A stretch of DNA of 56,154 bases from Erysipelotrichaceae bacterium. GTDB taxonomy: Bacteria; Bacillota_I; Bacilli_A; Erysipelotrichales; Erysipelotrichaceae. The stretch is taken from NCBI GenBank assembly GCA_015058955.1, contig SVBJ01000011.1, positions 1 through 56,154 on the forward strand, in the 5' to 3' direction. The notes beneath the pieces are model-generated. The model had not been told where the DNA came from, did not search any database, and worked only from the letters and a program-made list of their open reading frames with translations. Position numbers and translations under genes: made by a program. Shown here piece by piece: positions 95-3,348 of this stretch (positions within the stretch are counted from its first letter, which is position 1; each line of letters starts with the position of its first letter).

Positions 95-631
95 TTATGA
101 TAACATTGCCTGAAGAACAATGGCATAGACTATGCCAACCACAAATCCACCCAGATGTCCGGTAACGGATATGTTCGGCATGAAGTTGACGATAAGGTTA
201 GGCATCATGTACTGTAAGGCATCCCGCAGGGTAAAGTAATGTGATCTTACCAGCAGCGTGACATAGAATGCCATGAATCCATAAAGCCCTCCGGAAATAC
301 CTACCGTAATGCTGTTCTGATTCTTCTTGACCATCATGGTCAGGATATTGCCTCCCATGATAGCCAGCAGCAGCAGTAATCCGTACCAGACGGAACCCAG
401 GGCTCCTTCCAGCCAGCGGTAATTGTACAAGCTGTACATGTTTACCAGCAGGTGGTATGGCCGGATGTGGACAAAACCGGCGGTTATTATGCGGTACCAT
501 TCACCGCGCTTGACACGGTTAGGTACCAGGGCACCGGCCTTGATGGCGGCACCTATGCGGTTTTTGCTGATGTTGATGTAAAGGAAGATCAGAACGCAGA
601 TGACAATGGACGAGTAGGTTACAATGTACAT
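95..631 (-). CDS. Rhomboid-family intramembrane serine protease
   Basis: A small polytopic membrane protein of 178 aa that should cleave transmembrane segments of other membrane proteins within the bilayer. The sequence shows an N-terminal hydrophobic segment (about 3-20), a GEWYR element at 43-47, the HxxxxN-type segment HLLVN at 60-64, the catalytic serine in GISGG (Ser113) and the catalytic histidine in GHLGG (His159), so both dyad residues are present. It is the minimal bacterial form without cytosolic domains. Its start codon lies 13 bp inside the end of the upstream HPr-lactate dehydrogenase gene, so the two are probably co-transcribed and translationally coupled. The natural substrate is unknown. 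Confidence 0.93.
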   Translation of the reverse strand: MYIVTYSSIVICVLIFLYINISKNRIGAAIKAGALVPNRVKRGEWYRIITAGFVHIRPYHLLVNMYSLYNYRWLEGALGSVWYGLLLLLAIMGGNILTMMVKKNQNSITVGISGGLYGFMAFYVTLLVRSHYFTLRDALQYMMPNLIVNFMPNISVTGHLGGFVVGIVYAIVLQAMLS

Positions 632-1920
632 TCAGCGTTTCCTAATGGCTTTCCTTCATTGAAGTTGCGGGCATTTTCCATGGTTGTTACGGCGATGGCC
701 TGCATTGCTTCTCTGGTGAAGAAGGCCTGGTGAGAGGTCAGTACCAGCTGAGGGAAGATCTGCAGACGGGCAGTAATTGAATGCGGCAGCGGTTCATCGG
801 ATCTGTCAGTGTAGACGTTGGCATCTTCACCTTCATATACGTCCAGTGCTACGGCATGGAACTTGCCTTCCTTTAAGGCAGCGATCAGTGCTTCAGCATC
901 GATCAAAGGTCCTCTGGCTGTATTGACCAGCATGACGGTATCCTTCATCTTGGCAATGGCAGCAGCATCGATCAGGTGATATGTGCCGTTAGGGCCCATG
1001 ATGAGCGGAGCATGCAGAGAGATCAGGTCAGCTCTTTCCAGCAGTTCATCCTTGGTGACATAGGTAAGCAGTCCTTCATCAACCAGTCTCTGGTTAGGAT
1101 ATGCATCCCAGCCGATTACGGTCATGCCGTAACCCTTGGCGATTCTGGCAAAGCATTCACCGATCTTGCCTGTTCCCATGACACCGCAGATCTTGTTGTG
1201 CAGGTCAACACCCAGCAGTCCGGATAAGGCGAAGTTGTTTTCTCTTACCTTACGGTCAGCTTTGTGCAGACGGCGGTTAGCTTCCTGTATGATGGCCATG
1301 GCATGTTCAGCAACGGCGTATGGTGAATAAGCCGGTACTCTGGCAACCTTGATTCCATATTCCTTGCAGGCAGCCAGGTCAACATTGTTGAAGCCGGCGC
1401 ATCTTAACAGAATGAGTCTGATGCCTTCTTCATGAAGAATGTCTATTACTTCCTTTGGTGCTTCGTCGTTTACGAAGATGCATACGGCATCATGGCCCTT
1501 GGCCAGGGATGCGGTTTCTTCCGTAAGTCTGGAATTCAGGAAGGTGATTTCACTGTTGTAGGTTCCCGGTCCGAAGTCCTTGGTCAGTTCCTGGAAGAAG
1601 ACACGGTCATAGTCCTTGGTTCCGAAGAAGGCGATCTTGAGAACATGTACGGAATCTTCAGCAGCGATTTCCTTGTTAAGGATCTTCTTGATGTTTTCCA
1701 GTTCTTCCTGTTCAGTTGCACCATCTATTACTATGGTCAGGATGTCACCCTTCTTGGCTCCTAAGCCCAGGATCTGCAGAACGTTATTACCGTTAGCTTC
1801 CTTTCCATTGCAGCGGATGGTAACGGAGTTGCGGCTGTTGACACATAATTGTGCCAGCAGGGCAGCAGGACGGGCGTGGATTCCCATAGGGTTTTCTACT
1901 ACGCAACGATATTCGATCAT
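619..1920 (-). CDS. HPr phosphocarrier domain fused to D-lactate dehydrogenase
   Basis: A 433-aa two-domain protein. Residues 1-85 are a complete HPr of the PTS, with the phosphorylatable histidine in GIHARPAA at exactly His15. The regulatory Ser46 position is Asn46, so HPr kinase should not modify it. Residues from about 95 to the end are a D-2-hydroxyacid dehydrogenase closest in look to fermentative LdhA (LRCAGFNNVD at 172-181): NAD motif GTGKIG at 249-254, catalytic Arg336 (NTARG), Glu365 (DVYEGE) and His397 (SHQAF). The dehydrogenase should reduce pyruvate to D-lactate with NADH. The start is supported by an AAGGAGA ribosome binding site and a TGCTATAAT promoter. The fusion suggests direct coupling of lactate production to PTS phosphorylation state; that is inference. 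No frameshift lies between the domains. Confidence 0.92.
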   Translation of the reverse strand: MIEYRCVVENPMGIHARPAALLAQLCVNSRNSVTIRCNGKEANGNNVLQILGLGAKKGDILTIVIDGATEQEELENIKKILNKEIAAEDSVHVLKIAFFGTKDYDRVFFQELTKDFGPGTYNSEITFLNSRLTEETASLAKGHDAVCIFVNDEAPKEVIDILHEEGIRLILLRCAGFNNVDLAACKEYGIKVARVPAYSPYAVAEHAMAIIQEANRRLHKADRKVRENNFALSGLLGVDLHNKICGVMGTGKIGECFARIAKGYGMTVIGWDAYPNQRLVDEGLLTYVTKDELLERADLISLHAPLIMGPNGTYHLIDAAAIAKMKDTVMLVNTARGPLIDAEALIAALKEGKFHAVALDVYEGEDANVYTDRSDEPLPHSITARLQIFPQLVLTSHQAFFTREAMQAIAVTTMENARNFNEGKPLGNAECTL

Positions 1921-1993: not shown

Positions 1994-2899
1994 CTACTTA
2001 TCTTTTCCGGTAATTTCCTTGGCTGTTGTCAGCAGTGAGGCAATGCCCTGCAGTTCGCTAGGAACGACGATCTTGGTTGCCTGTCCGCTGGCCATTTTTT
2101 CATAGGTTTCGAGAGACTTTAATGACAGATATTCCTTGCTAGGATTGGAGTCATTGATCATCTGAATGCCTCTGGCTTCAGCTTCATAAACCTTGGCTAA
2201 GGCTTCAGCCTTACCTTCAGCTTCCGCAATCATGGCAGCCTTCTTGGCTTCGGCTCTTAATACTGTAGATTCCTTTTCACCTTCAGCTACCAGGATGGCA
2301 CTCTTCTTTTCACCTTCAGCCTTCAGAATGGCCTCACGTCTTTCACGTTCAGCTCTCATCTGCTTTTCCATGGCTTCCTGAATATCCTTAGGTGGAATGA
2401 TGTTCTTCAGCTCAACACGGTTAACCTTGATGCCCCAAGGGTCAGTTGCTTCGTCCAGGATGGAGCGCATCTGGGTATTGATGATGTCTCTGGAAGTCAG
2501 GGTTTCATCAAGTTCCAGGTCACCGATGATGTTACGCAGGGTAGTGGCAGTCAGGTTCTCAATTGCTGTGATAGGTCCGACAACACCGTAGGTGTACAGC
2601 TTAGGGTCGGTAATCTGGAAATATACTACGGTATCGATCTGCATTGTGACGTTATCCTTGGTGATAACCGGCTGCGGATCGAAGTCCTTGACGATTTCCT
2701 TCAGAGTAAGCTTGTTGGCAATTCTGTCAACGAACGGAACCAGGAAGTGAACTCCGGTAGTCCAGGTGGCATTGTAGGCACCCAGTCTTTCTACTACATA
2801 GGCTTCAGCCTGCGGTACGATCCTGATCATGTAGGCCAGTATCATGGCTACAATGAAGAATATTACCAGGAATATGATTATTGGTAAAAACTTTTCCAT
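1994..2899 (-). CDS. SPFH/band-7 (stomatin-like) membrane scaffold protein
   Basis: A 301-aa protein with one N-terminal membrane anchor (about 5-26), a PHB/SPFH domain (about 27-180) and an alanine/glutamate-rich coiled coil (about 180-250, full of KAEGE and AEAEG steps) used for oligomerisation. It belongs to the prokaryotic stomatin/QmcA group that forms membrane microdomain scaffolds. It follows an NfeD gene by 17 bases; stomatin-NfeD pairs are a long-known conserved operon in bacteria and archaea, and the OB-fold of NfeD is thought to act with the SPFH partner. Length and architecture are ordinary. The client proteins are not evident from the sequence. Confidence 0.92.
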   Translation of the reverse strand: MEKFLPIIIFLVIFFIVAMILAYMIRIVPQAEAYVVERLGAYNATWTTGVHFLVPFVDRIANKLTLKEIVKDFDPQPVITKDNVTMQIDTVVYFQITDPKLYTYGVVGPITAIENLTATTLRNIIGDLELDETLTSRDIINTQMRSILDEATDPWGIKVNRVELKNIIPPKDIQEAMEKQMRAERERREAILKAEGEKKSAILVAEGEKESTVLRAEAKKAAMIAEAEGKAEALAKVYEAEARGIQMINDSNPSKEYLSLKSLETYEKMASGQATKIVVPSELQGIASLLTTAKEITGKDK

Positions 2900-2916
2900 A
2901 AGAATGATCCTCCTTA

Positions 2917-3348
2917 CTAATCATCTATTGGTCTGACAATCAGCTTGACACCGTCGATTGCCATGATCCTAACAACAGTATCTTTCTTAACAGGTTGATT
3001 GTCAATAGAGATACAGCTCCAGGTCATTCCGCTGACCTGCCGTTCACCCCATGAATCGGAAGTGATGTCCTTGGTGACAATGGCGTTCATGCCGATCAGA
3101 CGGTCGCTGTTGGTGGCGACGACATTGCCGCGCAGATACTTGGCAGCTAATGGACGGACGATCAGCATTACTCCGATTGAAACCACAAAGAAAGTTATGA
3201 ACTGGAGTGCTGTTGACAGCTTGGCCCAGGCCATCAGGCCTGATGCCAGGGCACCAACCGCAAACCAGATGCAGATGAGATCGCCCAGAGTAATTATTTC
3301 AATTACTATGGAGGCTATTGCGACAAATATCCATAAAGTTATCATCAT
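2917..3348 (-). CDS. NfeD-like membrane protein with C-terminal OB-fold
   Basis: A 143-aa short-form NfeD protein. It has two to three hydrophobic segments (about 3-25, 28-45 and 48-67) followed by a soluble C-terminal part (about 80-143) with the alternating beta pattern of the NfeD OB-fold (LIGMNAIVTKDI, GERQVSGMTWSCIS, KLIVRPID). It lacks the serine-protease domain of long NfeD proteins. It sits between an unknown 123-aa gene (5-base gap) and the stomatin-like gene (17-base gap) in one operon, and is the expected partner of the latter in membrane organisation. Confidence 0.88.
   Translation of the reverse strand: MMITLWIFVAIASIVIEIITLGDLICIWFAVGALASGLMAWAKLSTALQFITFFVVSIGVMLIVRPLAAKYLRGNVVATNSDRLIGMNAIVTKDITSDSWGERQVSGMTWSCISIDNQPVKKDTVVRIMAIDGVKLIVRPIDD

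Follow-up and report, generated by a model that had tools for sequence, protein, structure and literature searches.

HPr joined in one reading frame to an LdhA-type D-lactate dehydrogenase: a possible PTS-linked control of lactate formation in gut Firmicutes

Introduction

In the PTS, phosphorylation of HPr on His15 by EI tracks the PEP:pyruvate ratio, and pyruvate is at once the product of EI and the substrate of lactate dehydrogenase (LDH). A single face of HPr serves EI as well as regulatory partners. A second site, Ser46, phosphorylated by HPr kinase, is typical of Gram-positive HPr without being defining for all HPrs. Several enzymes and regulators are known to be under the control of HPr, which binds them reversibly; the extent of direct PTS control over central metabolism is an open question. 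In Vibrio vulnificus, dephospho-HPr stimulates pyruvate kinase A (PykA) and lowers its Km for PEP (PMC5987630). In Escherichia coli, dephospho-HPr binds MtlR less well when it carries R17A, K27E, S46D or L47A/F48A (PMC5320558). HPr also occurs as part of longer proteins: a survey published in 2008 on the phosphoryl-transfer proteins of the PTS lists its fusions to EI and IIA, and the word "dehydrogenase" is absent from that survey (PMC2405797).

The gene described here lies in a window of 56,154 nucleotides, namely positions 1-56,154 of the forward strand of contig SVBJ01000011.1 (assembly GCA_015058955.1, Erysipelotrichaceae bacterium). The source genome is a draft in 37 contigs, estimated to be 95% complete. 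The gene encodes HPr and a D-lactate dehydrogenase in a single chain. A first-pass annotation of the window knew of no described protein of this layout, and none was found in full-text literature searches, most subscription journals lying outside their coverage.

Results

Reading frame and HPr domain

The fusion is encoded on the minus strand (positions 619-1920) by a frame that starts with ATG, preceded 8 bases upstream by an AAAGGAG ribosome site, and remains open for 433 codons, as the first-pass annotation had claimed (Table 1). The plus-strand reading of the same positions was rejected, being interrupted by stops throughout. The only Pfam domains of the protein are HPr and 2-hydroxyacid dehydrogenase.

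Table 1. Features of the fusion gene, in window coordinates
Feature	Position	Strand	Basis
Whole fusion open reading frame, stop codon included	619..1920	-	minus-strand frame and AAAGGAG site
HPr domain, residues 1-83	1672..1920	-	Pfam PTS-HPr 5-82, TIGR01003 1-82, predicted HPr-order secondary structure
His15 codon, HPr phosphorylation site	1876..1878	-	invariant in 81/81 fusions
Codon for residue 46, Asn in place of the Ser required by HPr kinase	1783..1785	-	alignment of 81 fusions
Linker, residues 84-93	1642..1671	-	variable sequence, near-constant length, low pLDDT
LdhA-type D-lactate dehydrogenase, residues 94-433	622..1641	-	phmmer and Foldseek matches
Catalytic Arg336, NTARG motif	913..915	-	invariant in 81/81
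Catalytic Glu365	826..828	-	invariant in 81/81
Catalytic His397, TSHQAF motif	730..732	-	invariant in 81/81

The N-terminal part belongs to the HPr family. The Pfam match to PTS-HPr has an E-value of 4.9e-20, and the profiles PF00381 (71.8 bits against a cut-off of 23) and TIGR01003 (69.7 against 47.9) are covered over their whole length. The predicted secondary structure (E2-7, H16-27, E32-37, E40-43, H47-51, E60-66, H70-82) follows the strand and helix order of HPr. In an alignment of 81 full-length fusions, made up of the window copy and the best 80 further loci, Gly13, His15, Ala16, Arg17, Val47 and Leu48 of this domain are invariant, and the complete, His15-bearing HPr of the first-pass annotation is thereby borne out. 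The face by which HPr meets EI and its partners, around His15, has a mean entropy of 0.75 bits compared with 2.19 bits for the other exposed HPr positions (Mann-Whitney P 2e-5), both sets having been picked from general knowledge of HPr structures and complexes. Median dN/dS is 0.20 for the HPr part and 0.14 for the LDH part in fusion pairs with an LDH dS of 0.1-1.2; by this measure, purifying selection is acting on both halves. That the fused HPr is apparently competent for phosphorylation is well supported by these sequence comparisons.

Residue 46, rightly read as Asn in the window copy by the first-pass annotation, is Asn in 65 of the 81 fusions, Asp in the remaining 16 and Ser in none, so that the fused HPr lacks the residue that makes HPr a substrate of its kinase. 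The Asp46 carriers are one group of Erysipelotrichaceae and one clostridial sequence, L073 (loci L009-L016, L018-L021, L024, L025, L033 and L073). Asp at this position (S46D) is the laboratory mimic of phospho-Ser in ordinary HPr, and by analogy Asp46 would slow phosphorylation by EI in these 16 proteins.

Dehydrogenase domain, linker and predicted model

The remainder of the protein carries the Pfam domains 2-Hacid_dh (residues 104-428) and 2-Hacid_dh_C (209-399). Its nearest solved structures are D-LDH or LdhA enzymes of Fusobacterium, Pseudomonas, E. coli and Salmonella, with 334 bits in phmmer to the Fusobacterium D-LDH 5z21, and the best Foldseek matches include LdhA of Salmonella and E. 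coli and D-LDH of Fusobacterium. The closest class is thus LdhA rather than the VanH, PGDH or GhrA types, and in a tree the domain groups among LdhA-like stand-alone enzymes, none of the NCBIfam equivalog cut-offs being reached by the LDH part. The three catalytic residues are accompanied by equally invariant glycines of the NAD-binding GxGxxG motif (G249-G254; 81/81), which agrees with the full LdhA-type enzyme with all catalytic residues proposed initially. An NADH-dependent conversion of pyruvate to D-lactate is predicted, on the basis of homology and of the lactate permease gene found beside the fusion in eight loci (see below).

The linker sequence is variable, with a mean entropy of 2.6 bits compared with 0.6 bits for LDH, and its length is nearly constant: 73 of the 81 fusions have 11 residues between positions 82 and 94. 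The HPr part evolves faster than the LDH part, with mean entropies of 1.40 and 0.60 bits, respectively. The predicted model of the whole protein has a mean pLDDT of 82, with good domains, low pLDDT at residues 86-89 of the linker and low confidence at 219-236 and 363-372. Judged from confidence and secondary structure, no fixed docking of HPr onto LDH is evident in it. Reasoning from the fold, HPr would join the catalytic domain along an edge that is remote from the active site, an arrangement from which control in cis is not obvious. Short insertions found only in fusions occur in the LDH part at 117-120, 282-283 and 308-310; the topology of the fold places the first of them on the edge that carries HPr, which makes it a candidate HPr contact.

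Distribution

The first-pass annotation had proposed to find out how widespread the order PTS-HPr plus 2-Hacid_dh is. When 84,980 species genomes were scanned, at least 80 further fusion loci were found, in Erysipelotrichia and Clostridia, in which essentially the whole query is matched at 68-98% identity. Each of these 80 loci is one stop-free frame, cultured isolates included, which excludes the stop codon or frameshift between the domains that had been named beforehand as a refutation. The 433-codon fusion is therefore confirmed as a real feature, far beyond chance. The carriers include the cultured Sharpea azabuensis (DSM 18934), Eggerthia catenaformis, two Faecalibacillus and Floccifex porci, as well as S. 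porci.

Among the matches listed, a full-length fusion is present in 61 of 273 Erysipelotrichaceae genomes, and a second family of Erysipelotrichales has it in 9 of 16 sampled genomes. No fusion was seen in the sample of other families of the class, which contain at best a stand-alone LDH near 50% identity. In a sample of 398 clostridial genomes, built around one fusion carrier, 3 have it, that carrier included. The best matches in a plasmid search were below 60% identity, with no HPr part among the matches listed. Fifteen Erysipelotrichaceae genomes possess a stand-alone LdhA-type enzyme, and none of them is among the 61 fusion carriers (own count, kinship ignored), as if the fusion replaced the stand-alone enzyme in this family.

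Partners in the cell and gene context

The source genome encodes EI (747 bits), HPr kinase/phosphorylase (318 bits), a separate HPr with Ser46 and five EIIC domains or permeases. The EI input that the first-pass annotation had taken to be kept is thus represented by a gene whose product could in principle phosphorylate the fused HPr, and the count of other HPr genes that it had advised yields the Ser46 protein. All 18 fusion-bearing genomes checked contain, in addition to the fusion, one or more other genes of the HPr family. In the source genome, at about 95% completeness, the fusion is the only LdhA-type enzyme and the only recognisable fermentative LDH found; no L-LDH was found, and one other clear 2-hydroxyacid dehydrogenase, GhrA-like by eye, lies at C12.

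Gene context varies widely among related loci, and no PTS gene is recurrent beside the fusion. An explanation by operon logic was consequently rejected, the only functionally telling neighbour being a divergent lactate permease gene (PF02652), adjacent to the fusion in eight loci of the Faecalibacillus/spiroforme kind (L036, L037, L039, L043, L048, L050, L052 and L053).

In the window, the last 13 bases of the fusion gene (619-631) also belong to a rhomboid-family gene (PF01694; 95-631, minus strand). A rhomboid gene also lies 3' of the fusion in L003-L008. The arrangement suggests that the two genes may be translationally coupled in this genus. Just 5' of the fusion are SPFH/Band 7 and NfeD genes (1994-3348, minus strand). 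Between these and the fusion, a TATAAT sequence and a stem-loop that leads into a run of T can be seen by eye, and a promoter/terminator scan of the locus returned none by its rules; the fusion may have its own promoter.

Origin and transfer

Compared with 30 stand-alone enzymes, the fused LDHs form one clade (support 100), and compared with 20 stand-alone HPrs, the fused HPrs form one group with full support. Since the fused proteins form one group in the tree of each half, a single fusion event would suffice. The fused HPrs group with clostridial-type HPr paralogs, apart from the canonical Erysipelotrichales HPrs, that of the source genome included (support 100/99). In these neighbouring paralogs, residue 46 is mostly Lys, Gln or Arg, and Ser in one (L185). 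Therefore, the loss of Ser46 probably predates the fusion and was inherited from clostridial HPrs. The first-pass annotation had stated that the HPr-kinase input is removed in this copy. Ser46 is indeed absent from it, but it is equally absent from all 81 fusions and from most clostridial relatives, so the removal is probably inherited rather than particular to this copy. The idea that Ser46 was shed to insulate the fusion from HPr kinase is weakened in the same way, most of the nearest stand-alone clostridial HPrs already being without it, and is set aside here for the reading by inheritance.

The fusion-bearing Clostridia carry several HPr paralogs among which functions seem to be divided. 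In one kind, the EI site His15 is retained and Ser46 mostly lost (L168, L178-L184, L188, L189). Another, Crh-like, has lost His15 and keeps the Ser46 of a KSIMG motif (L195-L199, L200-L203), and there is also a shorter His-less kind. In some HPr homologues of these genomes, the His15 motif has given way to DTRP or ETRP, or is missing altogether.

Where long sequences were compared, rpoB of the fusion-bearing Clostridia (L040, L041, L044, L051, L054, L057, L066, L067, L074 and L082) is about 51-54% identical to that of the source genome, whereas the fusion itself is about 68-74% identical. Labels of metagenome-assembled genomes such as "Lachnospiraceae" were not relied on alone, and rpoB identities were used for grouping; the groups into which they divide the fusion carriers fit Erysipelotrichaceae, Coprobacillaceae and Clostridia. 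Because the fusion is far more alike than rpoB, and because the fusion tree intermixes Clostridia and Erysipelotrichia groups, these sequences point to horizontal transfer of the fusion gene among gut bacteria, between Erysipelotrichia and Clostridia, perhaps in the direction from Clostridia to Erysipelotrichia.

Discussion

A sensor attached to the enzyme, and other readings

The reading put forward, with chances only just short of even, is that the fusion is a D-LDH with a built-in PTS sensor, in which the unphosphorylated state of His15 favours lactate formation. PEP-charged EI would phosphorylate His15 of the tethered HPr. During rapid uptake of PTS sugars, the PEP:pyruvate ratio would fall and the HPr domain would be mostly unphosphorylated; its face (His15, Arg17, Val47, Leu48) would then favour active LDH, which would convert pyruvate to D-lactate and regenerate NAD+. 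Phosphorylation of His15 would relieve this effect. The dephospho form is proposed as the lactate-favouring one because it is dephospho-HPr that stimulates PykA of V. vulnificus. We infer in this way that EI phosphorylates the fused HPr, that LDH activity responds, and the sign of the response. The first-pass annotation had likewise proposed that phosphorylation of His15 reports the PEP/pyruvate ratio and gates lactate output. The reading is favoured by the conserved His15 face, the low dN/dS of the HPr part, the PTS proteins encoded in the source genome, the position of the fusion as its only LdhA-type enzyme and the lactate permease beside eight fusions. Counting against it are the variable linker, a predicted model in which no fixed docking is evident, Asp46 in 16 fusions, the site at which HPr would be attached and a gene context in which no PTS neighbour recurs. 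Lactate output would probably be tied directly to sugar supply through the fusion. The wider proposal, in which HPr reads PEP:pyruvate via EI, switches D-lactate formation without HPr kinase or transcription, and has been spread horizontally as such a switch among gut Firmicutes, is possible, if somewhat more doubtful.

The conserved EI-binding face would also suit a tether, by which HPr docks LDH on EI. Pyruvate would be removed on the spot, EI autophosphorylation pulled forward and sugar uptake coupled to NAD+ regeneration, while LDH kinetics may stay the same. A flexible linker of near-constant length fits such a tether, as does the established enzymology that makes pyruvate a metabolite common to both enzymes. 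However, HPr-EI complexes are transient and pyruvate diffuses fast, so that the gain from channelling is uncertain, and this reading is considered unlikely.

Less likely again is a role of the HPr domain as a functional phosphocarrier for EII permeases, with control running from LDH to the PTS as the binding of NADH or pyruvate by LDH modulates sugar uptake. The phosphotransfer residues are conserved, and a carrier without Ser46, immune to HPr kinase at that site, could feed permeases while ordinary HPr is Ser-phosphorylated. Against this, a further HPr gene in every fusion-bearing genome checked makes a second carrier unnecessary, and PTS genes are not recurrent neighbours.

Marginally behind it in probability is the view of HPr as a structural add-on for stability, oligomer assembly or localisation, without any His15 signalling. 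The faster evolution of the HPr part and the widely varying gene context agree with it, but the constancy of His15, Arg17 and the interaction face in all 81 fusions is unexpected under a purely structural role. This retention is informative because His15 has been lost in some HPr homologues of the same clostridial genomes: the site can be lost, and its invariance in the fusions disfavours such a role.

Finally, an assembly chimera or a misread frame that fuses two adjacent genes has next to no chance of being the explanation and was rejected, since, although the window belongs to a fragmented draft genome, the identical junction recurs in 81 sequences, which stem from independent assemblies and include cultured isolates, and each half is a single clade.

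Because HPr and LDH are covalently joined in nature, the partner enzyme is identified, and the question of PTS control can be put to a single purified protein together with EI and PEP. The fusion is also relevant to the way in which rumen and gut bacteria form D-lactate. In low-methane sheep, D-lactate dehydrogenase transcripts of S. azabuensis are raised 12-fold in the rumen and PTS genes are highly expressed (PMC5069950). The raised transcript is probably that of the fusion gene, because the fusion is the only LdhA-type match in the genome taken as S. azabuensis, the strain of the sheep study, DSM 20406, being another one.

Comparison with known systems

The individual domains of the fusion are ordinary; their joining is apparently undescribed. 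LdhA of E. coli, Salmonella, Pseudomonas and Fusobacterium resembles residues 94-433 from end to end, with about 43-50% identity, the catalytic Arg, Glu and His and the GxGxxG motif. The fusion differs from these enzymes by its N-terminal HPr, its separate LDH clade and its own insertions. With HPr (PtsH) of the PTS, it shares the full domain, His15, Arg17 and the face for EI and partners, whereas the fused copy is covalently joined to an enzyme and, with Asn or Asp at position 46, is no substrate of HPr kinase at that site.

Crh of Bacillus is alike in its HPr fold and in being a paralog that has lost one of the two phosphorylation sites. The fused HPr is nevertheless not a Crh but its opposite, since Crh keeps Ser46 and has lost His15. 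FPr, DhaM and related multiphosphoryl transfer proteins also use HPr as a module of a multidomain protein (PMC2405797). They join it to EI or IIA, whereas the partner in the fusion is a fermentation enzyme, which places the fusion outside their class.

The HPr-PykA pair of V. vulnificus, in which an enzyme acting at the PEP/pyruvate node is governed by the phosphorylation state of HPr (PMC5987630), is the system to which the fusion would be analogous under the sensor reading. There, two separate proteins act on the formation of pyruvate; here, a single protein would act on its reduction.
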